A stretch of DNA of 48,822 bases, taken from assembly GCA_022565695.1 (NCBI GenBank), contig JAIUME010000015.1, positions 1-48,822 of the forward strand, read 5' to 3'. Shown one piece after another: positions 2 to 37,537 of this stretch. Position 1 is the stretch's first letter, and every line of letters starts with the position of its first letter. The stretch comes from Alcanivorax sp. (lineage in GTDB: Bacteria > Pseudomonadota > Gammaproteobacteria > Pseudomonadales > Alcanivoracaceae). The notes under the pieces were generated by a model. It searched no databases and was not told the DNA's origin. It worked only from the letters and a program-made list of their open reading frames with translations. The position numbers were made by a program, and so were the translations under genes.

Positions 2-1555
2 GCGGATGATCTGGCCGACCAGGTTCTGGGCGCGGGGGTTGGCGGCGTCGGTGTTGGCGGCGCTGCGGCCAGAGTTGTTGGTCAGGGTGAAGTACACCAT
101 GCCGGTGCGCGGGCACACGGCGCCCCACTCCGGGCGGTCCATTTTGGTGGCGCCGGCAATATCGGCGGCCAGGCGGGTATTCAGCAGCACATCGGCCTGG
201 GATTCGAAGCTGTGTTCGCTCTCGGAGACGGCAGCCATGAATGCGACGTCATCGAAGTCCAGCGCCAGCCACTCGCCGGTGCCGTCATCGTTGAAGCGGG
301 CGACGTACAGGGTGCCGTCGTCCAGCAGGTCGTCGCCGCGCAGGCCCGGGGCCCAATTCAGGTTGCTGACATACTTGTAGATGTATTCGTTACCGGCGTC
401 GTCACCGGAGTAGAACACCATCGGCTCGCCTTCCTTCGGCTCGGCGAAGACGATGCCTTCGTGGGCGAAGCGGCCCAGAGCGGTGCGCTTCACCGGCATG
501 GCGTCCGGGTTGAAGGGGTCGATTTCCACGATCCAGCCGTAGGTGTTGGGTTCGTTGCGGAAGTCTTCTTCGGCGCTCTCGGCGGTGCTGCCCACGTCAA
601 AGCGGGTGTAGTTGTCATCGCCACCGACAGCAGTTTCCCACAGGTAGCGGCTGGTCTGGCCGGAATGCCGCACGCCGTAGCGGGTCTGTTCGCGCGGGCG
701 CTCGGCAGAGGTCGCGGTGCTGTTGCGGAAGTAGCCGGCCCAGTTCTCTTCACAGGTCAGATAGGTGCCCCAGGGGGTGAAGCCGTGGGCGCAGTTGTTC
801 AGGGTGCCGCGGGTGCGGTGGCCTTCAGGGCTGTAGACGGTTTTGACCTTGTCATCGCCGCGCACCGGGCCGTTGATTTCCATGGGCGTAAAGGCGGTGA
901 TGCGGCGGTTGCGCATGGAGGGGATCACTTCCCACTGACCGCGGCTGTTCTTGCCGATCTCGATCACGGACACGCCGTGGCCTGCCATTTCCTTGCGCAC
1001 TTCGTCCAGGGGGCGCGGGGCGCCGCTGGGGCCGTTGGCGTGGAACACGCGCTGGTCCACATACTCGTGGTTCATCACCAGCAGGCCGTGCTCGGAGCTG
1101 CCGTCAATGGGAAAGTAGTGCATGCCATCGTGGTGTGAGCCGACTTGCTGCAGCTGGTCAATGCCGGTGTTGGTGCCGTTATCGAAGAAGGCGGGCATGC
1201 CGCCGGTGATCGGGGTGCCCCAGGGCACAAACGGCGTAGCGGTGTAACCCGCTGGCACGGTCACTGTGTCGGCGCGGGTGATCGGAATGGCGTCGAAACC
1301 GAGACGGGGCGCAGGCAGGTCGCCGCCGGGGCCGGTGCCGGGCGTCGATGAGCTGGAGCTGCCACCGCAGGCGGCTAGGCCAGCGCCCATAAAGGAGACG
1401 GCGGCAACGCCCAGGGAGCCCTTGAGCATGGCGCGGCGAGAGTAGCGCGCCTGAATGACATCGGCAAAGTGACGGTTGCTGGACAGGTTGCTCATGGCTT
1501 CGTCGCCATTGTCGGTCAGCATGTCGGGGAGATGATGATCCAGTTTGATATTCAC
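2..1555 (-). CDS. phoX: PhoX-family (DUF839) exported phosphatase, 3' end cut by window
   Basis: This is a PhoX-type (DUF839) secreted phosphatase, a family that releases phosphate from organic esters outside the cytoplasm using Ca and Fe cofactors. The reading frame starts at a GTG at 1555, preceded 8 bases upstream by GAGGA, and stays open to the window edge (518 codons seen; the family is usually 600-700 residues, so the C-terminus is missing). A twin-arginine signal is visible near residues 45-65 (YSRRAMLKGSLGVAAV), followed by LAACGGSSSSS, which looks like a lipobox, so a Tat-exported lipoprotein is possible. Family-typical stretches include LLVMNHEYVD, NNCAHGFTPWGTYLTCEENW, and, at the truncated end, QNLVGQIIR. 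It is divergent from ubiD. Confident as to family; substrate unknown. Confidence 0.9.
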   Translation of the reverse strand, partial: MNIKLDHHLPDMLTDNGDEAMSNLSSNRHFADVIQARYSRRAMLKGSLGVAAVSFMGAGLAACGGSSSSSTPGTGPGGDLPAPRLGFDAIPITRADTVTVPAGYTATPFVPWGTPITGGMPAFFDNGTNTGIDQLQQVGSHHDGMHYFPIDGSSEHGLLVMNHEYVDQRVFHANGPSGAPRPLDEVRKEMAGHGVSVIEIGKNSRGQWEVIPSMRNRRITAFTPMEINGPVRGDDKVKTVYSPEGHRTRGTLNNCAHGFTPWGTYLTCEENWAGYFRNSTATSAERPREQTRYGVRHSGQTSRYLWETAVGGDDNYTRFDVGSTAESAEEDFRNEPNTYGWIVEIDPFNPDAMPVKRTALGRFAHEGIVFAEPKEGEPMVFYSGDDAGNEYIYKYVSNLNWAPGLRGDDLLDDGTLYVARFNDDGTGEWLALDFDDVAFMAAVSESEHSFESQADVLLNTRLAADIAGATKMDRPEWGAVCPRTGMVYFTLTNNSGRSAANTDAANPRAQNLVGQIIR

Positions 1556-1694
1556 GATGGTCTTCCTCGGGGATAATAGAAAACGTCGCGAATGACCCTA
1601 ATGGCGATGGGTGAACAGCAGATTATCGAGGCGTGACAGCATTGAGACACGCTCTGGTCAACCAGATGACAACGGCACGCTGACGTGCGAATGC

Positions 1695-1700
1695 TATACT
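1695..1700 (+). promoter_or_regulatory. possible -10 box upstream of ubiD
   Basis: TATACT lies 55 bases before the ubiD ATG in the phoX-ubiD divergent gap. No good -35 box stands at the usual 16-18 base spacing (the best nearby hexamer, TGACAA at 1667-1672, is 22 bases away), so this is only a candidate. Confidence 0.3.
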
Positions 1701-1754
1701 CCGGCGGCAGTTGTGCGGCCCAGGCCGCCCCACCGGACAAGATTGAGGTTTGCG

Positions 1755-3266
1755 ATGAAATACAAGGATTTGCGGGACTTTATCCAGCAGCTCGAACAGC
1801 TTGGCGAGTTGAAACGCATCCGGGTGGAAGTGGACCCGAATCTGGAAATGACCGAGATCTGTGACCGCACGCTGCGTGCCGGTGGCCCGGCACTTCTGTT
1901 TGAAAATGTGAAAGGCAGCACAATTCCCGTGCTCGGCAATCTGTTCGGCACCACCCGGCGTGTGGCGCTGGGCATGGGGCGCGAGGATGTCAGCGCGCTG
2001 CGCGAGCTGGGCGAGTTGCTGGCCTTCCTGAAGGAGCCCGAGCCGCCGAAGGGCTTTCGTGATGCGTTGTCCAAGCTGCCGATCCTGAAGCAGGTGCTGG
2101 CCATGAACCCGAAGGTGGTCGGGTCGCCGGATTGCCAGCAGCAGGTGATCGAAGGCGCGGATGTGGATCTGTACAAGCTGCCGATCCAGACCTGCTGGCC
2201 CGGTGATGCGGGGCCGCTGGTGACCTGGCCGCTGGTGATTACCCGGGGGCCGGAGAAGACACGGCAGAATCTGGGCATTTACCGGCAGCAGCTGATCGGC
2301 CGCAATCGCCTGATCATGCGTTGGCTGAGCCATCGGGGCGGCGCGCTGGATTTCCAGGAATGGCAGAAGGCGCACCCCGGCGAGCCCTTCCCGGTGGCCG
2401 TCGCCCTGGGCGCAGACCCGGCCACCATTCTGGGGGCGGTGACGCCGGTGCCGGATACGCTCAGTGAATACGCCTTTGCCGGTCTGCTGCGCGGCGGCCG
2501 CACCGAGGTCGCCAAATGCCAGAGCGTGGATCTGCAGGTGCCCGCCAGTGCGGAGTTTGTGCTGGAGGGCTTTATCTACCCGGATGACTATGCCGAGGAA
2601 GGCCCGTTTGGTGATCACACCGGTTATTACAACGAGGTAGATCACTTCCCGGTGTTTACCGTAGAGCGCATCACCCACCGCCGTGATCCGATCTACCACA
2701 GCACTTACACCGGCCGGCCGCCGGATGAGCCAGCGATTCTCGGCGTGGCCATGAATGAATTGTTCGTGCCGATACTGCGCAAGCAGTTTCCGGAGATCAC
2801 GGATTTCTATCTGCCGCCGGAGGGCTGCTCCTACCGCGTCGCGGTGGTGACCATGAAGAAGCAGTATCCGGGGCACGCCAAGCGGGTAATGATGGGGGTC
2901 TGGTCGTTCCTGCGGCAGTTCATGTACACCAAGTTCGTGATTGTCTGCGATGACGACGTTAACGCGCGGGACTGGAAGGACGTGATCTGGGCCATGACCA
3001 CGCGCATGGACCCGGCGCGGGATACGCTGCTGGTGGAAAACACGCCCATCGACTATCTGGATTTCGCCTCGCCGGTGTCCGGCCTGGGCTCGAAGATGGG
3101 GATGGATGCCACCAATAAATGGCCCGGCGAGACCACTCGCGAGTGGGGCGTGCCGATTACCATGGACGACGCGGTCAAGCAGCGCGTTGATGCGATGTGG
3201 GAGCAACTCGGCATTCCTGCCGGGCCTGTTACCGAGACTGCCCCGACAAAGGATGCAGACCGATGA
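1755..3266 (+). CDS. ubiD: UbiD, 4-hydroxy-3-polyprenylbenzoate decarboxylase
   Basis: UbiD decarboxylates 4-hydroxy-3-polyprenylbenzoate in ubiquinone synthesis, using prenylated FMN made by UbiX. The ATG at 1755 begins [20 protein letters not shown], the normal N-terminus of the family; the frame is open further upstream but that part has no family similarity. The product is 503 residues, matching the usual 490-500. Family hallmarks are [34 protein letters not shown], the strongly conserved [11 protein letters not shown] segment that carries acidic active-site residues, and [18 protein letters not shown]. The stop overlaps the next gene by four bases (ATGA), so the two are probably co-translated. 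ubiX is not in the window. Confidence 0.96.
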
Positions 3267-5907: not shown

Positions 5908-6393
5908 ATGCAGATCGCAGACAATGCCGTAGTGGCAATCCACTACACCCTGACCGACGACGCGGGTGCCACCCTGGACTCCTCCCGCGAGCGCGACGAA
6001 CCACTGGCCTACTTGCACGGCCACGGCAACATCATCCCCGGCCTGGAAAACGCGCTGACCGGCAAGCAGGCAGGCGACAAGCTGACTGTCAAAGTGGAAC
6101 CGGCTGAAGGCTATGGCGAGCGCCACGACGGCCTGATCCAGACGGTACCGCGCAACGCCTTCGAAGGCGTGGAAGAAGTGCTGCCGGGCATGCAGTTCCA
6201 GGCCCAGACCGATGCCGGTCCGCGCCTGTTTACCATCACCGAAGTCGAAGGCGACAACGTGACCGTGGATGGCAACCATCCGCTGGCCGGCTCGACCCTG
6301 AACTTCGATGTGGAAATCGCGGAAGTACGCGAGGCCAGTGAAGAAGAGCTGGCGCACGGTCATGTCCACGGCGAAGGTGGCGTTGAGCACTAA
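5908..6393 (+). CDS. slyD: SlyD-like FKBP-type peptidyl-prolyl isomerase
   Basis: A 161-residue FKBP-type prolyl isomerase and chaperone of the SlyD class. The FKBP part is split by an IF (insert-in-flap) domain: the first half reads ALTDD-type strand VAIHYTLTDDAGATLDSSRE then PLAYLHGHGNIIPGLENAL, the IF domain follows at about residues 70-120 (EGYGERHDGLIQTVPRNAF), and the FKBP fold closes with HPLAGSTLNFDVEIAEVREA. SlyD often ends in a long His/Cys-rich metal-binding tail for nickel delivery; here only a short AHGHVHGEGGVEH remains, so metal storage is probably reduced. ATG 5908 is chosen because the family begins MxIxxNxVV; the frame is open upstream, and no strong Shine-Dalgarno decides it. 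A strong terminator follows. Confidence 0.9.
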   Translation: MQIADNAVVAIHYTLTDDAGATLDSSRERDEPLAYLHGHGNIIPGLENALTGKQAGDKLTVKVEPAEGYGERHDGLIQTVPRNAFEGVEEVLPGMQFQAQTDAGPRLFTITEVEGDNVTVDGNHPLAGSTLNFDVEIAEVREASEEELAHGHVHGEGGVEH

Positions 6394-24249: not shown

Positions 24250-25010
<761 letters not shown>

Positions 25011-25011
<1 letters not shown>

Positions 25012-26000
25012 CACATGCGGCTCCTGTAAAGCAGGTAAAGGAAGGTGGGCACGCCCAGCAGTGCGGTAATGACGCCCACCGGCAACTGCTCCGGCGCCAG
25101 CACCGTGCGCGCCAGCGTGTCAGCCAGGGTCAGCAGAATCCCCCCCGCGAGGGCCGCCGCCGGCAGGATGATGCGCTGATCGTTGCCGAGCACCAGGCGC
25201 AGCATATGCGGCACCACCAGCCCGACAAACCCGACACTGCCTGCGGTGGTCACGGCCACCGCCGTCAGCAGGCTGGCAAGAATATAGATGCCCCACTCCA
25301 GGGGCCGCACCGCCACCCCGAGGGCAGCCGCCTGCATGGGGCCGCGCGCCAGCACGTTCAGTACCCGCCCGGCGGGCAGCAAGAGCAGACAGGCCAGCGC
25401 CAGGGTCAGCACCGGCGGCCAGGGGCTACGCGCGTAACTCATATCGCCCATCAGCCAGTAGAGCATGCCGGGCAAGCGCTCCGCCGGACTCAATGCCAGC
25501 ATCAGAGTGATGACCGCGCCCCATCCGGCAGCCACCACCACCCCGGTCAGTAATAATCGTGTGGGCGTCCAGCTGCCGGTGCCGTGGGCCAGCCCGAACA
25601 CCAGCAACGTCGACAGCAAGGCGCCGGCGAACGCCGACCCGGATATCAGTGCGGTGCCCAACCCGGACAGCATCGCCGCCAGCGCACCCACTGCCGCGCC
25701 ACCGGAAAGCCCCAGCACATAAGGGTCCGCCAGGGGATTGCGCAGCAGGACCTGCATCAAGGCACCCGCCACGGCCAGCAAGCCGCCGGTGGCAAACGCG
25801 GCCAGCGCCCGGGGCGCACGCAATTCCAGCAACAACAGCCGGTGCAGCGGCTCGCCTTCGCCGCGCAGCACGGCGAGGATCTGCATCGGCTGGACGGTTT
25901 CACTGCCGATGGCCACGGCCAACGCCAGCGCCAGCAGCGAGGCCAGTATCAGCACCAGCCAGGTCAGGCTGTGGCGCAGCCCTGAATCAACGCCGGGCAC
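25011..26000 (-). CDS. btuC: BtuC-like FecCD-family permease
   Basis: The inner-membrane permease of the cobalamin ABC importer, 329 residues with about ten membrane spans as in BtuC. Family hallmarks are RLLLLELRAPRALAAFATGG, LAVAGALMQVLLRNPLADP (the gating region of FecCD proteins), YVLGLSGGAAVGA and the ATPase-contacting loop TAGSVGFVGLVVPHMLRLVL. The gene start overlaps the btuF end by 14 bases and its stop overlaps the btuD start, so the three are translationally linked. Substrate assigned from context. Confidence 0.92.
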
Positions 26001-26916
26001 GGGCTGTCTCCAGGTGCTCGCACAGGATTTCCCCGCCCTGGAGCAGGCGCGGCGTGGGGCGCTGGATGCGTGAGGGCGGCACGAAGAACAGGTTGTCGCG
26101 CTGCACGGCGGTCAGTGAGGGGTAGCGTCGCCAGTCGGTGAGCCAGTCTGTATTTTCCTCGCCCATGCCGCCGGCCACGATGGCTTCCGGGTTGCGCACC
26201 AGCACCGACTCCACACCAATGCGCGGCACCCGGCGCGGCAGCGCCGCAAACACATTCTCGCCCCCGCAGAGCGCGATGACCTGATGGATCAGGTGGGTCT
26301 CGTTGACCGTCATGATCGGCTCATCCCAGACCTGGTAAAACACGGGCACCGGGGGCGCCTCGGCATAGCGTTGCCGCAATGCATCAATGCCGTCCCGGAA
26401 TGCCTGCGCTGCACTGGCGCCGACGTCCTCGGTGCCCGCCAATCGGGCCAGCCGCTCCAGCGACGTGGCCACATCCTCGAAACTGACCGGCTCGGTGAAG
26501 TACAGCGGAATGCCGAAGCGCTCCAGCAACGCCACCTGTTCCGGCGGGTTGCCGGTGGGCCAGACCAGCACCAGGTCCGGTTCCAGCGCCAGCAAGGCCT
26601 CCATATCCACACGCCGATTGCTGCCCAGTTGTGGCAACGCTGCCGCCTCGGGCGGGTAGTCGCTGTAATTCACGGCCGCCACCATTTGTGCCCCACCGCC
26701 GGCGGCATACATCAGTTCGGTGGCGCCGGGGGACAACGCAATAATGCGTTGTGCCGGCGCGGCCAGGCACACCTCACGCGCCGCATCATCGACCACGCAG
26801 CGTTCGCCCTGCTCCGCCGCAACACCGGCAGGCAACGTCAGCAGCAGGCACGCCAGGGCGCCTGCGGGCCGCGCTTTGCCAAACAGTGCTGTGATGAATC
26901 TGGCCGTGCGGCCCAT
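25987..26916 (-). CDS. btuF: BtuF-like periplasmic cobalamin-binding protein
   Basis: A 309-residue periplasmic binding protein of the helical-backbone type (PeripBP_2/BtuF) that hands cobalamin from the outer-membrane receptor to BtuCD. It has a signal peptide ending PAGVAAEQ (near residue 34), then RIIALSPGATELMYAAGGGA and ALLALEPDLVLVWPTGNP, both standard in the family, and a long linking helix around FEDVATSLERLARLAGTEDV. Two Cys near the N-terminus (GERCVVDDAAREVCL) may form a disulfide. Start ATG 26916, 27 bases after the btuB stop; end overlaps btuC. Confidence 0.92.
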   Translation of the reverse strand: MGRTARFITALFGKARPAGALACLLLTLPAGVAAEQGERCVVDDAAREVCLAAPAQRIIALSPGATELMYAAGGGAQMVAAVNYSDYPPEAAALPQLGSNRRVDMEALLALEPDLVLVWPTGNPPEQVALLERFGIPLYFTEPVSFEDVATSLERLARLAGTEDVGASAAQAFRDGIDALRQRYAEAPPVPVFYQVWDEPIMTVNETHLIHQVIALCGGENVFAALPRRVPRIGVESVLVRNPEAIVAGGMGEENTDWLTDWRRYPSLTAVQRDNLFFVPPSRIQRPTPRLLQGGEILCEHLETARARR

Positions 26917-26943
26917 AGCGTCTCCCTTTTCAGTGCCGGGATA

Positions 26944-28851
26944 TTAGAGAAAGTCGTAACGCAGTGTCAGGAACGCATGGCGCCCGGCACTGACATCGTT
27001 GGCGACCACTTCGTATTGCTTGTCGAGCACATTCTCGATGCTCAGCCGGGCCGACCAGTGTTGCGCAAAGCGTACGCCGGTGCGCAAGTGCAGTAACCCG
27101 TAGCCCGCCAGGCGCTGCTGGTTGGCTGCATCATTGTAGCGGAAGCTCTGGCCGACGGCGGAAAGCCCGACAAAGGCATTGCCGATGTCGCGATCCAGAT
27201 CCAGACGCACCGCCTGCCCCGCGCGGCGCTGGATACGGTTGCCGGTATCCCGGTCACGGGGGTCCATGGCCGTCGCCGCCGCGCGCCAGCGTAACCCCGA
27301 CAGCTCGCCGCCAGCGCCGAGTTCGACGCCGCGAATACGCGCCCGCTCCACATTGGTGGGCCGGCGCACACCATCATTGCCCACCGCATTGACGATCAGG
27401 TTATCCACCTCGTTGTGGAAGACGGCCAGGTCCCAGAACATCTGCGCATAGTCACCGCGCAGGCCGATTTCGGTACTGATCGACGTCTCCGCTGACAGAT
27501 CCGGGTTACCGGCAAAAGTGGGCGAAGCGGGGAAATACAGGTTATTGAAAGTCGGGGCACGGAACGCCGTGGCGCGGCTGACACGCACGCGATGCTGCGC
27601 ATCCAGGGCCAGACCCAACGCAAAGGCGCCGGTGGTTTCCGTGCCGAAGGCTTCATTGTCATCCCAGCGCAGGCTGGCCTGGGCATCCACGCGCCCGGCC
27701 TGGCTCAGCAGTTGCGCATAGGCGGCGGTATTGTCGCGGCTGTCTTCGGCAAAGGCCGTACTGCTGTCGACCTCATCACGGAAATACTCGCTGCCGACAA
27801 TCAGTTCGTGGCGCCCGAGGAAAAGGTGATTGTCCCAGCGCACGGCGCGTGTGCGGGTATCGAAGAAGGATTCGCTGCCGGTGCTGGCGGACGTGGTCAC
27901 ACCATCGTCCCGTGCTTCACTGACCTGCAGATTGATCAGCCATTGTTCCGTCACCGGCAGTGCGCCGGTCAGCGCGCCCACCTGCTTGGTGAAATCCGTA
28001 TCACCGGTGGTGAATACCGTATTGCCCTGGGTACGGAAACCCAGCACACCAACCTCGGCGCCGTTGTCGAGTTGCTGCACCACACGGGCAACGCCCGAGG
28101 TGTTGTAGAACCCCTTGTCTTCATTGTCATTGGCGCGAATCTGCGTGCCATCGGTATGAAAATGATTGGCGGCCACGCTGTATCGGGTATTGCCATGGCG
28201 ACCCGCATGACCTGCGCCGTATTCATGGGCACCGAACGACCCGCCGCCAACCTGCACCCAGCCACGGTCGTGATGACCGGAAGGGGTAAACGCCTGCACC
28301 ACGCCGCCCACTGCATCGGCGCCGTAAATACTGGCGCGGGGGCCGCGCACTATTTCCACGCGGTCCAGCAACTGCGGCGGCAGGAATTGCCACGGCGCAT
28401 TGCCGGATGTGGCGGAGCGAATGCGCACGCCGTCAATCAGCAGCAACGTCGATTCACCGCTGTTACCGCGAATGAAGACATTGGTGTTCTTGCCGAAAGA
28501 GCCGTTGCTGGCAACATCCACACCGGGCTGGCCGCGCAGCAATTCGCCCAGTTCACGGGGCTGCTGCTGACGGAGCATGGTCTGATCGATCACCGTGACG
28601 GAGGTCAGGCTGTCACTGACCGTACGCGCCGTCATGTTCGCGGTCACGACCACCGGATCAAGGCTGGTTCCCCTGTGTGTTGCAACATCGTGTTCAGCAT
28701 CCTGATCCGTCGCCGAGGGGGCGGTGTCGTCGGCAAAGGCTGGCAAGGTAACAACAAGACAAAACAGGCTCAGGGCGGCCATGCCGCTGGAGAAGCGCGC
28801 AAGCGAGAAACAGGCACGGGAAAAAACTGACGTCGTCAAAAGGCTATTCAA
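26944..28851 (-). CDS. btuB: BtuB-like TonB-dependent vitamin B12 receptor
   Basis: Outer-membrane receptor that imports B12 with TonB energy. The 635-residue protein has a signal peptide ending TLPAFADD, a clear TonB box LDPVVVTAN, a plug domain (SVTVIDQTMLRQQQPRELGE, GVDVASNGSFGKNTNVFIRG, STLLLIDGVRIRS, IEIVRGPR-like EIVRGPRASIYGADAVGGVV) and a beta-barrel ending LTLRYDFL. Plug motifs match BtuB closely. Translation probably starts at TTG 28851: AGGGGA stands seven bases upstream, while the later ATG at 28782 has no ribosome binding site. A cobalamin riboswitch lies about 180 bases upstream and btuF follows, so its B12 role is well supported. It heads the transcript btuB-btuF-btuC-btuD-cobB-cobO-cobQ. 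Confidence 0.94.
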   Translation of the reverse strand: MNSLLTTSVFSRACFSLARFSSGMAALSLFCLVVTLPAFADDTAPSATDQDAEHDVATHRGTSLDPVVVTANMTARTVSDSLTSVTVIDQTMLRQQQPRELGELLRGQPGVDVASNGSFGKNTNVFIRGNSGESTLLLIDGVRIRSATSGNAPWQFLPPQLLDRVEIVRGPRASIYGADAVGGVVQAFTPSGHHDRGWVQVGGGSFGAHEYGAGHAGRHGNTRYSVAANHFHTDGTQIRANDNEDKGFYNTSGVARVVQQLDNGAEVGVLGFRTQGNTVFTTGDTDFTKQVGALTGALPVTEQWLINLQVSEARDDGVTTSASTGSESFFDTRTRAVRWDNHLFLGRHELIVGSEYFRDEVDSSTAFAEDSRDNTAAYAQLLSQAGRVDAQASLRWDDNEAFGTETTGAFALGLALDAQHRVRVSRATAFRAPTFNNLYFPASPTFAGNPDLSAETSISTEIGLRGDYAQMFWDLAVFHNEVDNLIVNAVGNDGVRRPTNVERARIRGVELGAGGELSGLRWRAAATAMDPRDRDTGNRIQRRAGQAVRLDLDRDIGNAFVGLSAVGQSFRYNDAANQQRLAGYGLLHLRTGVRFAQHWSARLSIENVLDKQYEVVANDVSAGRHAFLTLRYDFL

Positions 28852-28920: not shown

Positions 28921-29030
28921 AACAGCAGAGCGGACACGGCATCAGGCGCCGGCATGGTCGACTGCCCCGCCGCTGCCCTCCGCAACGCCTGGCTTACGCC
29001 ATCCGAAGTCGGGACGGCACTGACGCTCCT

Positions 29031-29222
29031 GGCCGGTATCCGGGCTGATGAGTGGGCGGCGCCGACGCGCCGACCGGAATGATTGCCTTCCCATGTCCGC
29101 AGACACAGTGGCACTTCAATCATTCTTGTCTCAATCACCGTTGCGGGGGCAGCGCTGGTTTTGGATCGATGATCCGCACCAGCTTCCCGTTTAACCCCGC
29201 CGGCTGTCGGCGGGGCACCTGG
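29031..29222 (-). ncRNA. cobalamin riboswitch upstream of btuB
   Basis: Read on the minus strand the element starts with the AGGTGCC segment (29220-29214), passes TTAAACGGGAAGCTGGTG, contains the B12 box GCTGCCCCCGCAACGGTGAT (29153-29134), then the CACTGTGTCTGCGGACATGG and GGGAAGGC segments, and closes with AGCCCGGATACCGGCC (29046-29031). These are the conserved blocks of the AdoCbl/cobalamin riboswitch in the expected order. It lies between the cobD stop and btuB, so it can control btuB and the six genes after it. Binding of B12 normally lowers expression. Confidence 0.96.
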
Positions 29223-29281
29223 AGGCGGGGCGGACATTAGCACAGCGACGCGCGGGCGCGCCAGCTTCGCAGGCCGTCGCC

Positions 29282-31351: not shown

Positions 31352-31379
31352 TTGACTTCCCCGGTCAACGCCCTAGCAT
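31352..31379 (+). promoter_or_regulatory. promoter of the second riboswitch transcript
   Basis: TTGACT (31352-31357) and TAGCAT (31374-31379) with a 16-base spacer; the -35 hexamer matches the sigma-70 consensus at five of six positions. The expected start point near 31386 is just before the riboswitch. An inverted repeat GTTGAC-7-GTCAAC (31351-31369) covers the -35 box. Confidence 0.6.
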
Positions 31380-31401
31380 GCCGATGCTTGAATAACCGTG
31401 G

Positions 31402-31606
31402 CAGGTGCGCCCTCAGGGGCGTTAAACGGGAAGTCTGGTGAGGATCATTGATCCAAGGCCAGCGCTGCCCCCGCAACGGTGATCGGTAACAGGCATGACA
31501 GGCACCCCGCCCCGGGGCCGCCAGCCACTGCGCTCCGCGTGGGAAGGCGTCATGCCGAAGGGGTTTTCTTCAACGCCCCCTTCGACCGAGAGCCCGGATA
31601 CCGGCC
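31402..31606 (+). ncRNA. second cobalamin riboswitch, upstream of receptor-lipoprotein-cobT
   Basis: In order on the plus strand: CAGGTGCGCC (31402-31411), GTTAAACGGGAAGTCTGGTG (31421-31440), the B12 box GCTGCCCCCGCAACGGTGAT (31464-31483), a central arm with GCGTGGGAAGGCGTCATGCC, and the closing AGCCCGGATACCGGCC (31591-31606). All conserved blocks are present. The B12 box is identical to that of the first element, 2.3 kb away on the other strand. It controls the TonB-dependent receptor at 31733 and probably the lipoprotein and cobT. Confidence 0.96.
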
Positions 31607-31732
31607 TGCCACTGGCTATCGACGCAACCGCGGTGGGCCGTTGCGTGGGGTACTCCATCGTTCCATCCCCCAGATAGCTGCCAGAACCGACACACAAGAC
31701 TGTGGGCCGCCCCGTGCCCGCAGGGGGGAGTC

Positions 31733-33712
31733 ATGGGCGCAGCACGCTTGCTGCCGCTATTACTGGCGGTGGTCGCAATGCCAACGAGTGCGGAAAACAG
31801 TAGCCTCGCGCCGGTGGAAATTCGTGCGGGCGCGCTGAATGCCGCCGCCGACATTGAACCGGAAGACAGCACCAGTCCGGTGCGCGTGATCGACCGCGAT
31901 GCCTTTGAAAACCGGATCACCACCCTCGCGGATACGCTGAGCAACCAGACCGGTGTGCAGGTACGGCAAAGTGGTGGCCTGGGCAGCCTGGCAACTGTCG
32001 CCATTCGTGGCTCATCGGGCAAACAGGTTCAGGTGTTTCTGGACGGCATGCTGTTGAATGACCCCTTGTATGGCAGCGTGGATCTGAGTCTTTTTTCCCT
32101 GCATGACGTGGGTCGCATCCAGATCTATCCCGGCAATCCGCCAGCACGCATTGCGCAAGCGGGGCCCGGCGGCACCATCCTGCTTGAATCCCTCGGTGCG
32201 GACACCCACGCACGAACGAAGATCAACCTTGGCGCCGGCAGCTTCGGCACCCAACGCCACGGGCTGTTCAACAGCGGCTCATCGGGGCGTTTTCATTATT
32301 GGTTTTCTGCCAACCATCAGGCGGCAGACAACGACTTCCGGTACCCCAACCGGTCAGCCTGGTTCAATCCGGCAGACGGCGACCAGACACGGCGCCGCAA
32401 TGCAGACATCACCCAATATGACGGCAGTCTGAATGCCGGCTATCAATGGGACCCGGCACGTCGCGCGTCGCTATTGCTGCAATGGACAGACAAGGACCAG
32501 GGCATTCCCACACCGCAAAACTGGCAGAGCAACAACGCCCGGCTCGCGACACGCACGCAACGTGCACAGCTGCACTATCAGGATCGCAGCAACTTTGCTG
32601 GCAGACTGCATCGCAGCCATCGGCTTACTGTTGCCAATATTGACGAAAGCTATCGAGACCTGAGCGGGCGCGTCGGCACCGGAAGCTACGACATGCGCAC
32701 GGAGACGGCGCACATCGGCGTCGCCAACACACTGAGCTGGATACAGAACCTTCATCTCGTCAGTGCCTCGATCGATACTTCCTACTATGACCAGACCCAG
32801 ACGGACGACCTTCGCCCGGAACCACCGGCGCGCAGGGAACGCTGGCTGGTGGCTTCGGCACTCAGCCACGAGTGGCGCAATATCGACGACACCTGGCATA
32901 CCCAGGCCGTGCTGCGCCGCACTGACCTGATCGACGAGGCACGGGAGACACTGCCCGACGGCACGCGTCACAACAGCCGCGAGCGCAGCGATTACAGCGG
33001 CTGGCAACTCGGGATACGACACGCGCTTTTCATGCCATTGGATATCTACGCCAATGTCTCGCGGCAGGTGCGTATTCCCACGCTGCTCGAACGTTTTGGC
33101 CAACAAGGCCTGTTTATCGGCAACCGGGACCTGCAACCGGAAGAAGCACTGAACATCGAGGTCGGTGCCAGGTGGACAGGCACATACGGTCATCTGGAAG
33201 TCACCGGCTTCCACAGGGATCTTGATCCCGCCATCGTCACAGTGTTTGACGCGCGCGGCGTCGGCCGCCACGTCAATATCGCGGCGGAATTTCAGGGCAT
33301 CGAGGCCGAGGCCCTGTACCGGGTGACCGAAAAATGGTCACTGAACGGAAACCTGACACTCCAGGATTCGCAAAACACATCCACCGCCGTGCTGAGCCAC
33401 ACTGGCAAGCGTGTGCCGGGCATCTACCACCGCTCCGCCATGATCGGCAGCGCCTGGCAGCTCAACCCTTTTCAAGCCGGAGTTTCATGGCATATCGACG
33501 ACGGGCTCTATTACGACGCCCCGAACAGATTGCCGGCAGATACCCGGCAGACAGTCGATGCAAGCCTTTCCTGGCTGCACGCTCACCGTCAACGGAGCAA
33601 GACGCGCATTGATCTTCTGGTGCGCAACATCGCCGACAAACATTACCAGGAATTCAACCGTTTCCCGGGCGCTGGCCGCGCCTGGTTTTTAACCCTGCAA
33701 CACACGCTCTGA
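31733..33712 (+). CDS. TonB-dependent receptor under B12 riboswitch control
   Basis: A 659-residue outer-membrane TonB-dependent receptor. Signal peptide MGAARLLPLLLAVVAMPTSA is cut before ENSS. The plug reads SPVRVIDRDAFENRITTLAD, TLSNQTGVQVRQSGGLGSLA, TVAIRGSSGKQVQVFLDGML and LHDVGRIQIYPGNPPARIAQ, followed by a barrel that ends WFLTLQHTL. It is clearly different from the btuB product in this window and lacks an equally clear TonB box; APVEIRAG near residue 26 is the best candidate. AGGGGGG directly precedes the ATG. Position behind a cobalamin riboswitch and before cobT makes corrinoids the likely substrate, but cobalt or a B12-related compound is possible. The lipoprotein starts 20 bases after its stop. 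Confidence 0.9.
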   Translation: MGAARLLPLLLAVVAMPTSAENSSLAPVEIRAGALNAAADIEPEDSTSPVRVIDRDAFENRITTLADTLSNQTGVQVRQSGGLGSLATVAIRGSSGKQVQVFLDGMLLNDPLYGSVDLSLFSLHDVGRIQIYPGNPPARIAQAGPGGTILLESLGADTHARTKINLGAGSFGTQRHGLFNSGSSGRFHYWFSANHQAADNDFRYPNRSAWFNPADGDQTRRRNADITQYDGSLNAGYQWDPARRASLLLQWTDKDQGIPTPQNWQSNNARLATRTQRAQLHYQDRSNFAGRLHRSHRLTVANIDESYRDLSGRVGTGSYDMRTETAHIGVANTLSWIQNLHLVSASIDTSYYDQTQTDDLRPEPPARRERWLVASALSHEWRNIDDTWHTQAVLRRTDLIDEARETLPDGTRHNSRERSDYSGWQLGIRHALFMPLDIYANVSRQVRIPTLLERFGQQGLFIGNRDLQPEEALNIEVGARWTGTYGHLEVTGFHRDLDPAIVTVFDARGVGRHVNIAAEFQGIEAEALYRVTEKWSLNGNLTLQDSQNTSTAVLSHTGKRVPGIYHRSAMIGSAWQLNPFQAGVSWHIDDGLYYDAPNRLPADTRQTVDASLSWLHAHRQRSKTRIDLLVRNIADKHYQEFNRFPGAGRAWFLTLQHTL

Positions 33713-33732
33713 TACCACACGAGGAACGATCA

Positions 33733-34908
33733 ATGAGCACATCAGACAACAGCACAAGGCTTTCTCCACTTAAAGGCCTGCTGCCAGGTCTCATCATCGC
33801 AGCAGCCCTGACGGCATGTGGTGGCAGCAGTTCCAGCAGCGCACCCCGTCCGATCAGCCCGGAAGGGATGACCGCTGTCATCGCCACAGTCGATGCCGGT
33901 TATCAATCCGGTGAGGTTGAACTGATCGATCTGGACGCCGAAGCGATGACGGCATCCGGCGGTTACCACGCTACGATCTCCGATATTTCCGTCTCCAGTT
34001 ATGGTCAGCATTACTATCTTATCGAGCGTTATCAGGGCGATCGCATTGGCAAGGTGGATATCAGCAACCCGGCGGTATTCGACTGGCAGTATTCCACCGT
34101 ATCCGAAGACGATACTGAAAGCGCCAACCCCTATGAGCTGATTTTTGTCGATGATGAAAAGGCCTATCTTGTTCGCTATGACAGCACTACGGCCTGGGTC
34201 GTCAACCCGTCCGCGACTCGGGAAGAGGACTTTCGTATCGGTGAGCTTGATCTCTCTGCCTACTCTGCTGGCGGCGCGACCACACCTCGCATGTCTGCGG
34301 GCATCCTCATCGGCGACCGGTTATTTCTTGCCATGCAGCGGCTGGATAGCAGCTGGCAGCCCTCGCATGATGGCTACGTGGCCGTGTTTGATATCAACAC
34401 TGACACCGAGATCGACACGGAGCAGGGTGAAGATGGCCTCAAGGGAATTCCATTGATCAGCCGCAACCCGTTGAGCATGGCATATCAACCGGAACTGGGG
34501 CTCTTCGTGCAAGGCGCAGGCGCCTATTTTTCCTCGACGCATAGCGGCGGCATTGACGTGATTGATGTCGATGACTTCAGTGTGAGCCAGCTGCTTGCTG
34601 CGAGCGACGACACCGGACAGATTGACAGCATAGCGGTGCGCGACGCAGAGACGGCATACATCACCATCTATAACGGCGGCATGCGCCGCATCAATCCACA
34701 GACCGGTGACATTCTGGGCGCGATTGATGCCGTATCCGCTACCGACATCCGCAGCCTGGCATTTGATCCTCTGGGTCGTCTTTGGGTGGCCGATGCTACA
34801 ATGGCGGCACCGGGTTTACGCGTGATCAATCCCGACGATGACAGCCAGGTGGCGTTTATTGCGACCGACCTGCTGCCCTCTGCCATCACCTTCGTCGTTG
34901 AAGAGTGA
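33733..34908 (+). CDS. beta-propeller lipoprotein paired with TonB receptor (BtuG-like candidate)
   Basis: A 391-residue lipoprotein of no recognised proteobacterial family. The signal GLLPGLIIAAALTAC has a lipobox with Cys29, followed by GGSSSSS, a flexible linker without an Asp retention signal, so outer-membrane placement is likely. After residue 46 seven similar units of about 35-45 residues can be read, each with an 'SxxF-x-D-x-x-AYLV...I-DINT' type pattern: about 47-73, 82-122, 132-172, 187-228, 246-289, 296-332 and 338-377. Examples are AVRDAETAYITIYNGGMRRI and AFDPLGRLWVADATMAAPGL. This is a seven-bladed propeller pattern. It lies between a riboswitch-controlled receptor and cobT. The analogy with BtuG, the B12-capturing propeller lipoprotein of Bacteroides, is inference. 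Composition is less GC-rich than cobT. Confidence 0.82.
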   Translation: MSTSDNSTRLSPLKGLLPGLIIAAALTACGGSSSSSAPRPISPEGMTAVIATVDAGYQSGEVELIDLDAEAMTASGGYHATISDISVSSYGQHYYLIERYQGDRIGKVDISNPAVFDWQYSTVSEDDTESANPYELIFVDDEKAYLVRYDSTTAWVVNPSATREEDFRIGELDLSAYSAGGATTPRMSAGILIGDRLFLAMQRLDSSWQPSHDGYVAVFDINTDTEIDTEQGEDGLKGIPLISRNPLSMAYQPELGLFVQGAGAYFSSTHSGGIDVIDVDDFSVSQLLAASDDTGQIDSIAVRDAETAYITIYNGGMRRINPQTGDILGAIDAVSATDIRSLAFDPLGRLWVADATMAAPGLRVINPDDDSQVAFIATDLLPSAITFVVEE

Positions 34909-34932
34909 CCCACACAGGAAACGTATGAACGT

Positions 34933-36000
34933 ATGAAGGCGCCTTCATCTTTTTTGCCCTCGATATTGCCATCGCTTTCGCAGACGTCGGCCACCGATGC
35001 TGCTGCACGGCAAGCCACACTGACCAAGCCAGCTGGCTCACTCGGCAGGCTGGAGCAACTGGCCATTACCCTCGCCGCCCAACAGGGCCGGGACAAGCCC
35101 GCCGTGGATCGGGTGCACATTGCCCTGTTTGCCGGCGATCACGGCGTCTGCGAAGAGGGTATCTCCGCCTTTCCGCAAACCGTCACCGGCCAGATGATTG
35201 CCAATTTTGCCGCCGGAGGCGCTGCCATCAGCGTGCTCGCGCGGCAACTCGACGCCACGCTGGAAATCATCGATACCGGCACCGTGTCGGCACGACACCC
35301 GCAGGCCATTGATGCACGTATCGCTGCCGGGACCGCCAACCTGGCGCGCACCGATGCCATGACCGCCGCCGAGCGTGATCAGGCACTGATGGCGGGCGAG
35401 GCTGCCGCCGAACGCGCGGCGGCAGCGGGCGCCGAGTTGTTTATCGGCGGCGAGATGGGCATCGGCAACACCACCAGCGCTGCGGCGCTGGCCTGTGCGC
35501 TGCTCGGGGCGCCAGCCCGCCAACTTACCGGGCCGGGCACCGGGCTCGACGCCGCCGGCGTAGCCCACAAGACACACATCGTGGCGCAAGCACTGCAACG
35601 GCACGCCGATACGCACGCGCAGCTGGCGCAGGACCCGCTGACCATCATGGCGTCGCTGGGGGGCTTCGAGATCGTCGCGCTCAGTGGTGCCATGCTGGGT
35701 TGCGCGGCGCGCCGGATTCCGGTGCTGGTGGATGGCTTTATCGTGTCGGTGGCCGCCCTGGCTGCGGTGCATTGCCAGCCGGCACTACGCCCCTGGCTGC
35801 ATTTTGCCCACCGTTCCGGCGAGCCGGGTCATGCGCATGTGCTGGACGCGCTGGAGGCCGAACCATTACTTGATCTGGGTATGCGTCTTGGTGAGGGCAG
35901 CGGCGCGGCGGTCGCGGTGCCGCTGTTGCGTGCGGCCTGTGCGCTGCATAACGGCATGGCAAGCTTTGCCGATGCCGGAGTCAGCAGCGCTGGCACCTGA
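34933..36000 (+). CDS. cobT: nicotinate-nucleotide--dimethylbenzimidazole phosphoribosyltransferase CobT
   Basis: CobT activates the lower-ligand base by moving phosphoribose from nicotinate mononucleotide to dimethylbenzimidazole (or another base), giving alpha-ribazole phosphate. The 355-residue protein contains [20 protein letters not shown], the [20 protein letters not shown] segment, [28 protein letters not shown] and the C-terminal [18 protein letters not shown] with the catalytic Glu, all standard for CobT. It starts 24 bases after the lipoprotein stop, so it shares the riboswitch-controlled transcript. ATG 34933 is preceded by AGGAA at a rather long 12-base distance, and a three-codon reading frame with its own ATG at 34925 overlaps the start. 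Confidence 0.96.
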
Positions 36001-36391: not shown

Positions 36392-37537
36392 TCAAAAAAC
36401 ATTTGTCTGCTGGCGCAGGCGATCCAGCCAGGCACGTAACGCCGGGCGCGACGACGCATCCGTATCCCGCCGGTGTTCCGCTGGCAGGGCACGCACATTA
36501 CTGTCCGCCAGCACATCCCCGGGGGAGACGCCGAAGGTCTGCCGAAACAGACGCGAGAAGTGGCTCTGGCTGCCGAACCCCCAGCGCATAGCCACATCAA
36601 TGACGCGCCGTGGCCGCCCTCGCACATCCGGTTGTGCAAGCTCGTCATAACAACGGCGCAGCCGGGCTTCACGGATATAACCCGCCACGCCGCCCAGCGG
36701 CGCAAACAGCCGGTAAAGTCGCGCGCGGGAAAAACCAAAACGCTGGCACAGATGTGAGGGCGTCATATCGTCCCGGCCCAGATTACCCACGATGTAGGCG
36801 CAGACGGCCTCAAGCCGGGCCTGCTCGGGCAGCGACGCCAGGCCCTGGGCGGTATCCTGTCTCGCGCCACGAAACGCGCTGGCCATGGTTGCCACCAGGG
36901 TTTCGTTGATTGGCGCGAGCGCCTCGGGGCCGACTCTGTCCAGTTGCTGCCAGACGGTCAGCATGTGATTGCCGAGGATCGCCGCGAGTGGTGACCCGGC
37001 GCGCAGCACCGCCCCGCCAGCCAGCTGCTGCCCGCCCTCACTGGCCAGCGCCCGGGGCACCACCAGCGACACCGCGCGGGACGGTTTGGCGTGGCTGGTC
37101 AGCCCCTCGCCCATATCCAGCAAACTGATGTCGCCGGGCTGCACGATCACGTCGCGATGTCCGTTGTGCCCCCGATATCCGCCGCTCAGATAGAGCTGCA
37201 CCAGAAACGGGTCTGCCCCCTCGTCCGGGGCATGATGCCGGCCGCGCTCATAGATGCTGGCCGGGAAGTCACTGCGCGCGAGCAATACCTGCTGCAAGTC
37301 ATAGCTTTCGATGCGCGCGGCGAAGCCGCCGGACGTGTCGACGGCGGCCCGGGCGTTGAACAACGGATGCAGGCTCTCGCGCCAGACAGCATGGCCCTCA
37401 TCCCCCGGCAGGGTGCTGGTATCGAATGCATCGAAAGCCAATCGCCCCGGCTGGCAGCCGGGCAGGCGCGCGCCGACCGGATCAGGCTTCTCATCGTGTA
37501 TGCGCTGGTCGTCGTCTATACGCTGGTTTTCATGCAT
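36392..37537 (-). CDS. AraC-family transcriptional regulator
   Basis: A 381-residue regulator with an N-terminal AraC_binding_2-like sensor domain and a C-terminal AraC double helix-turn-helix. In the sensor, PFLVQLYLSGGYRGHNGHRD and IVQPGDISLLDMG are the typical beta-barrel segments. The DNA-binding part reads MTPSHLCQRFGFSRARLYRL, then VIDVAMRWGFGSQSHFSRLF and RQTFGVSPGDVLA, the standard second helix-turn-helix. The effector cannot be told. It is divergent from cobC with a 203-base gap that holds two candidate operator sites. The N-terminus is low in complexity (QRIDDDQRIHDE) because of an 18-base DNA repeat. Start ATG 37537; a later start is not excluded because the first 40 residues look unstructured. 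Confidence 0.9.
   Translation of the reverse strand: MHENQRIDDDQRIHDEKPDPVGARLPGCQPGRLAFDAFDTSTLPGDEGHAVWRESLHPLFNARAAVDTSGGFAARIESYDLQQVLLARSDFPASIYERGRHHAPDEGADPFLVQLYLSGGYRGHNGHRDVIVQPGDISLLDMGEGLTSHAKPSRAVSLVVPRALASEGGQQLAGGAVLRAGSPLAAILGNHMLTVWQQLDRVGPEALAPINETLVATMASAFRGARQDTAQGLASLPEQARLEAVCAYIVGNLGRDDMTPSHLCQRFGFSRARLYRLFAPLGGVAGYIREARLRRCYDELAQPDVRGRPRRVIDVAMRWGFGSQSHFSRLFRQTFGVSPGDVLADSNVRALPAEHRRDTDASSRPALRAWLDRLRQQTNVF

Follow-up and report, generated by a model that had tools for sequence, protein, structure and literature searches.

The surface lipoprotein BtuG of Bacteroides, a seven-bladed propeller that serves as a lid of the B12 receptor, was reported only from Bacteroidetes in a BlastP analysis of 313 human gut genomes, as far as the accessible part of PMC6143338 goes, and according to the portion of PMC10404256 available to us lipoprotein-capped receptors in general seem to be exclusive to this group. 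The same portion of the latter paper describes that the EL8 tip of the Bacteroides receptor enters the BtuG pocket, and that removal of this tip stopped growth at low B12 (PMC10404256). We found no report of BtuG outside Bacteroidetes in the open-access literature. According to our analysis, a riboswitch-controlled pair of receptor and lipoprotein in the gammaproteobacterium Alcanivorax sp. probably follows the same design.

The window, i.e. the whole analysed stretch of DNA (48,822 nucleotides), holds two B12-controlled blocks, riboswitch-btuB-btuF-btuC-btuD on the minus strand and riboswitch-receptor-lipoprotein-cobT on the plus strand (Table 1). The initial annotation, made from the letters alone, had read the second block as a complete cobalamin riboswitch followed by a receptor, a lipoprotein and cobT; open reading frames, domains and TIGR03160 agree with this order and spacing, and the riboswitch is indeed complete, the position where that reading began (31352) lying 34 bases ahead of it. 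A normal btuB-btuFCD operon, also claimed to be nearby, is present with all its members. cobT is a variable and not a constant member of the cassette: it adjoins the lipoprotein in the window, as had been noticed, and among relatives it directly follows the lipoprotein in loci L018, L019, L021 and L022 and not in L017 or L020. Between cobT and later cob genes the window also encodes an AraC-family-like regulator (by translation; 36392-37537, minus strand), which has a match among L017-L030 in L021 and L022 only.

Table 1. Features of the cassette and of the canonical operon beside it, with positions in the window
Feature	Position	Strand	Basis
Cobalamin riboswitch of the cassette	31386..31623	+	RF00174, model 1-189 full length, 89.2 bits, E 7.8e-21
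TonB-dependent receptor, B12-receptor-like but far from canonical BtuB	31733..33712	+	ORF of 659 aa; Plug E 9.2e-17, barrel E 8.9e-30
Receptor residues 506-512 (DARGVGR), predicted tip of extracellular loop 8	33248..33268	+	Strand count from the paired model; our own loop numbering
Lipoprotein, predicted propeller fold, proposed lid	33733..34908	+	ORF of 391 aa; starts 20 bases after the receptor
Signal peptide and lipobox up to Cys29 of the lipoprotein	33733..33819	+	Sequence LTAC; Cys conserved in the alignment
Conserved stretch of the lipoprotein, residues 132-159 (N132 to P159)	34126..34209	+	Near-invariant columns in 31 rows
cobT	34933..36000	+	24 bases after the lipoprotein; TIGR03160 424.4 bits, cut-off 319.3
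Second cobalamin riboswitch (canonical operon)	29014..29237	-	RF00174, 103.8 bits
Canonical-type btuB	26944..28851	-	TIGR01779 446.3 bits, below the cut-off of 599.7
btuF	25987..26916	-	PF01497 E 8.1e-24; BtuF model 177.3 bits, cut-off 234
btuC, permease	25011..26000	-	ORF; named from translation
btuD, ATPase	24250..25014	-	ORF; named from translation

We followed the pair through 85 loci, each from a different genome (the window, L017-L027, L059-L078, L079-L098 and L099-L131). In 83 of them the gene immediately upstream of the lipoprotein, in the same orientation, encodes a receptor of one family, the other two (L127, L130) being cut by contig ends, and a cobalamin riboswitch lies upstream of the pair in 76: 1/1, 10/11, 17/20, 20/20 and 28/33 in the five sets in the above order, those of L102 and L131 being incomplete where the contig stops. 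In seven of the nine loci without a riboswitch the contig breaks off inside or near the receptor (L062, L074, L110, L123, L124, L127, L130); L078, which has the weakest lipoprotein, and L025, where 507 bases are available upstream, show no riboswitch, and this counts against a BtuBG-like reading. Two orders account for 68 of the 85 loci, which therefore do not count as independent events. Pairing and riboswitch at these frequencies exclude a chance arrangement, and neighbouring genes vary while the pair stays together. The arrangement by which BtuG is recognised, a gene beside a BtuB-type receptor under a cobalamin riboswitch, is therefore found here as well, and the co-occurrence behind riboswitches, earlier proposed as a check, is confirmed. 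In many loci the pair neighbours btuF, btuC, btuD and cob genes: L064 has in a row riboswitch, receptor, lipoprotein, a PF01497 protein, btuC and btuD, and in L069, L075, L097 and L098 btuC and btuD come directly after the lipoprotein. Downstream of the cassette of L084 there is a TwoAYGGAY RNA (6204-6333, plus strand; 43.9 bits, gathering score 43).

Lipoprotein matches occur in 14 of 143 relatives, in at least 25 of 369 genomes of the class and at least 35 of 390 of the order, in 40/48 and 3/3 genomes of two further orders, and in at least 8 of 398 genomes of a phylum sample, only the window's genome matching strongly in the latter; these counts include weak matches and overlap among samples, and those for class, order and phylum are lower bounds, since only the best four to five candidates per genome were scored. 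The 14 relatives gave 15 places, and three weak ones without the cassette (G139, G085, G003:C2) were dropped. The class sample added 20 new genomes, with G435 (two contig-end fragments), G489, G395, G174 and the second places of G485 and G193 left out. From the order sample (35) nine were already counted, 18 were added and eight weak ones left out, and all three loci of the 3/3 sample had been counted before. The 40/48 sample contributed 35 loci besides three already counted; G518 (internal stop), G538 (fragment) and extra places in G551, G528, G507 and G533 were left out. In G551 the lipoprotein profile matches seven places in one genome, three of them with an internal stop or in pieces.

The structure model of the lipoprotein (pLDDT 90.9) has 27 strands, and its best 15 Foldseek matches in the PDB are all BtuG chains, as are, by VIA-align, its 11 best entries, with 305-319 residues aligned; identity over the fold alignments of both programs is 13-16%. 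XusB, also a lipoprotein, appears at rank 22 among the Foldseek matches, clearly outranked by BtuG, and YncE does not appear among the listed fold matches of either program. Seven blades, which the initial annotation had counted by eye, fit the model, and the structure prediction that it called for returned a propeller with the seven-bladed BtuG as the nearest solved relative; in its model, the lipoprotein would thus share the propeller fold characteristic of BtuG. It also shares the lipobox and the N-terminal cysteine, whose column is at least 90% conserved in 31 rows.

By sequence the lipoprotein is not a BtuG. A single-sequence phmmer search of PDB sequences at E up to 10 gave no BtuG, so the lipoprotein falls outside BtuG as delimited by BlastP at E below 1e-10 in the accessible part of PMC6143338. 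BtuG was not among the matches of an 11-row profile and of a partial single query either. A 31-row profile reaches it at E 0.003-0.03 (an alignment slice, 0.04-0.22), the BtuG sequences aligning at the conserved stretch of residues 132-159; BtuG is outscored there by sensor kinases and by an archaeal S-layer propeller (2.8e-8), and weak matches include SMP-30-like and S-layer propellers. The Bacteroidetes lipoprotein export signal, as described in the accessible part of PMC6143338, is missing after the cysteine of the window protein, which reads CGGSSSSSAP. Assignment to DUF5074 (PF16819) was rejected at 18.3 bits against a cut-off of 27.2, with 2 of 11 members matching at E up to 1, and so was a BtuF-type periplasmic binding protein, PF01497 not being among the lipoprotein matches at E up to 1. 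A profile search for Slam (PF04575) in the window's genome gave no match, and no control gave a signal either; plasmid records yielded no match.

Acidic charge is common among secreted proteins of marine bacteria. The mature window lipoprotein has a net charge of -38 and the median is -32 (n=31), counted from the first Cys, which in some rows is not the lipobox Cys; for BtuG2 the available part of PMC10404256 gives -18. Two loci have unusual lipoproteins. In L096 the first lipoprotein gene is immediately followed by a second of the same family (534-1877, minus strand; E 3.5e-13; without a Pfam match at E 0.01), whose product may be an additional lipoprotein that binds B12, and in L070 (4995-6536, minus strand) a Calx-beta domain (PF03160, E 6.9e-8) precedes the propeller.

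The cassette receptor scores 100.8 bits with TIGR01779 versus 446.3 for the btuB of the window, and it was not accepted as canonical BtuB, being under the cut-off of 599.7, as are the window's btuB and all 24 genomes surveyed below. Its best PDB sequence match is Bacteroides BtuB1 (8blw_A, E 2.7e-14). Counting against a BtuBG-like reading, its best NCBIfam model is the siderophore receptor MxcH (122.8 bits, cut-off 925), and the profile scores are nearly tied between Bacteroides BtuB (132.6 bits) and E. coli BtuB (126). By fold, the receptor half of the paired model described below ranks Bacteroides BtuB3, BtuB1 and BtuB2 at 1-4, PqqU at 5, XusA at 6 and the first E. coli BtuB at 13. Pair alignments from 81 loci, of which 78 were kept after a gap filter, show the extracellular side of the receptor as the more conserved one (mean entropy 1.60 versus 2.06 on the periplasmic side), figures measured without a control family. 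Loop 8 is the most conserved of the 11 loops (mean entropy 0.73), part of the motif after it being general in such receptors; loops 5 and 6 (2.24 and 2.40) and the ten periplasmic turns (2.17-2.51) are variable.

In L017, from a sister species, whose receptor and lipoprotein are 70% and 64% identical to those of the window, both genes are in one frame, so natural DNA can be read there as a single chain. The AlphaFold model of this chain, built from 80 rows of which 15 are single-frame pairs, has pLDDT 90.4 and pTM 0.87 over 1065 residues, with a disordered 40-residue joint and the docked face not visible. With the lipoprotein unplaced a pTM of about 0.65 would be expected; the value found corresponds to a mean error of about 5-6 angstrom between the parts, by arithmetic from residue counts and not from PAE. 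It is too high for an unplaced lipoprotein, which supports docking of the two proteins in the model. A contact between lipoprotein and receptor, suggested beforehand, is thus backed by the single-chain model, the suggested extracellular face being the part on which the model is silent. The covariation signal linking the two proteins is weak (78 pairs, Neff 66): the 60 strongest inter-protein pairs fall on the extracellular side (30), the plug (20), the periplasmic side (9) and the middle (1), with p 0.08.

Canonical BtuB was surveyed with TIGR01779 (E up to 1e-30) in 24 whole genomes, of which 20 carry the cassette and four are relatives lacking it. The scores split in two: six reach 387-501 bits and no other exceeds 250, and we separated canonical from other receptors at 300 bits, a value chosen after the scores were seen. 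The six are the four non-carriers, the window's genome and G058; by this model 18 of the 20 carriers yield no canonical BtuB. Every carrier has a riboswitch at the cassette, and in nine it is the sole cobalamin riboswitch of the genome; each non-carrier has exactly one, just upstream of BtuB. A search for CbiC, which marks corrin-ring synthesis, gave no match in 17 of the 20 carriers, among them the window's genome, or in any of the four non-carriers, and such genomes must import corrinoids if B12 is used; 15 of the 18 carriers without canonical BtuB also lack a CbiC match. Since BtuB is not found in these 18, the pair looks like their main route. The idea of a second, specialised route therefore fits the window's genome and G058 rather than the other carriers: in this sample the window's genome is unusual in keeping both cassette and btuB, and the cassette is a recurrent alternative to BtuB in Gammaproteobacteria rather than a rare extra. 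In the congeners G004 and G005 (L021, L022) btuF, riboswitch and cob genes are arranged as in the window, except that btuF comes immediately after the minus-strand cobalamin riboswitch (L021:1174-1546, and the matching place of L022) and btuB is missing from between them: here btuB has been lost naturally next to the cassette.

Could the lipoprotein work on the other side of the membrane, as a periplasmic-face relay that passes corrinoid from the receptor to BtuF or BtuCD and is no lid at all? Gammaproteobacterial outer-membrane lipoproteins stay on the inner leaflet unless exported, the propeller YncE, encoded near YncD/PqqU in E. coli, is periplasmic, and in four loci btuC and btuD directly follow the lipoprotein. 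We nevertheless regard a relay as unlikely, because in the window BtuF is encoded next to the pair and in L064 the pair is followed by a PF01497 protein, because the periplasmic turns of the receptor are variable and its extracellular side conserved, and because the nearest folds of the lipoprotein are surface lids. The cargo may be questioned as well: a B12-regulated pair could import a siderophore or a cobalt complex, captured by the lipoprotein in the manner of XusB, and the fold ranks of XusB and XusA and the MxcH model point that way. This we judge distinctly improbable, as BtuG clearly outranks XusB, btuF, btuC, btuD and cob genes adjoin the pair in many loci, and the 18 carriers without BtuB, 15 of them without CbiC, would be left with no known B12 route. 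As propellers are versatile and weak profile matches lead to SMP-30-like and S-layer proteins, the lipoprotein might even have no functional link to the receptor, as an unrelated envelope protein that only happens to be on the same transcript, a reading we give hardly any credence against the constancy of the pair among varying neighbours and the confident joint model.

We therefore propose that the cassette is most likely an outer-membrane corrinoid importer of BtuBG design with a lipoprotein lid, usually replacing BtuB; riboswitch, pairing, fold, docking in the model and the pattern of BtuB absence are the computed grounds for it. Further points in its favour are the fold ranks of Bacteroides BtuB for the receptor half, the conserved extracellular side of the receptor, the acidic lipoprotein, the missing CbiC and the gene row of L064; against it also count the single-sequence search that did not reach BtuG, the missing Bacteroidetes export signal, the fold rank of PqqU, the weak covariation and the frequency of acidic charge in secreted proteins of marine bacteria. 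When cobamide is scarce, the riboswitch would permit expression of receptor and lipoprotein, and the latter, anchored by Cys29, would sit as a lid on the outer side of the receptor. Its acidic propeller would capture the corrinoid, and on closing of the lid the conserved extracellular loops, chiefly loop 8, would displace the ligand into the barrel, from where TonB would drive it into the periplasm for BtuFCD; the ligand, the surface display, the lid motion and the release by loop 8 are what we infer here. The initial idea that a gammaproteobacterium may have a receptor-lid design like BtuBG is thus supported, as far as this can be computed. The lipoprotein is most likely BtuBG-like in its working and, by sequence and export signal, is not filed as BtuG.

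More tentatively, and as a possibility rather than an expectation, we suggest that many Gammaproteobacteria usually admit B12 through such a lidded receptor, which displaced canonical BtuB in several lineages, and that its lid reaches the surface without the Bacteroidetes signal and was maybe recruited independently of BtuG from YVTN/YncE-type propellers; the lid may stem from an ancient transfer or from a new recruitment. If the proposal is true, the lid design spans two phyla, surveys that call species B12-import-deficient for a missing btuB are wrong on such carriers, and competition for B12 outside the gut partly rests on an unrecognised receptor. Surface display of gammaproteobacterial lipoproteins and a single versus double origin of the lid would also become directly testable.

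Among known systems, the canonical BtuB-BtuFCD of the window (24250-28851) shares with the cassette the riboswitch control, neighbouring genes and presumed cargo; it differs in having no lipoprotein partner and in its much higher TIGR01779 score. In E. coli the YncD/PqqU receptor gene likewise lies near a propeller gene, and PqqU is close to the cassette receptor by fold, but YncE is soluble and the cargo of YncD/PqqU is PQQ. TbpB/LbpB with TbpA/LbpA are a proteobacterial case of a receptor with a surface lipoprotein partner, as proposed for the cassette, with another lipoprotein fold and protein-bound iron as cargo. For XusAB, the xenosiderophore system of Bacteroides, we know of no B12 riboswitch. 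It also combines a TonB-dependent receptor with a surface lipoprotein, according to the accessible part of PMC13142918, and differs by a lower fold score than BtuG and by its siderophore cargo. From BtuBG of Bacteroides thetaiotaomicron the cassette is set apart by the low identity of its lipoprotein, the lack of the Bacteroidetes export signal, its occurrence in another class of bacteria and its being mostly one per genome, usually without BtuB. In the parts of PMC6143338 and PMC10404256 available to us BtuBG is likewise a riboswitch-controlled pair of a BtuB-type receptor and an N-terminal lipoprotein, and it offers the nearest propeller fold in the PDB, the nearest receptor folds and a lipoprotein that is also acidic.
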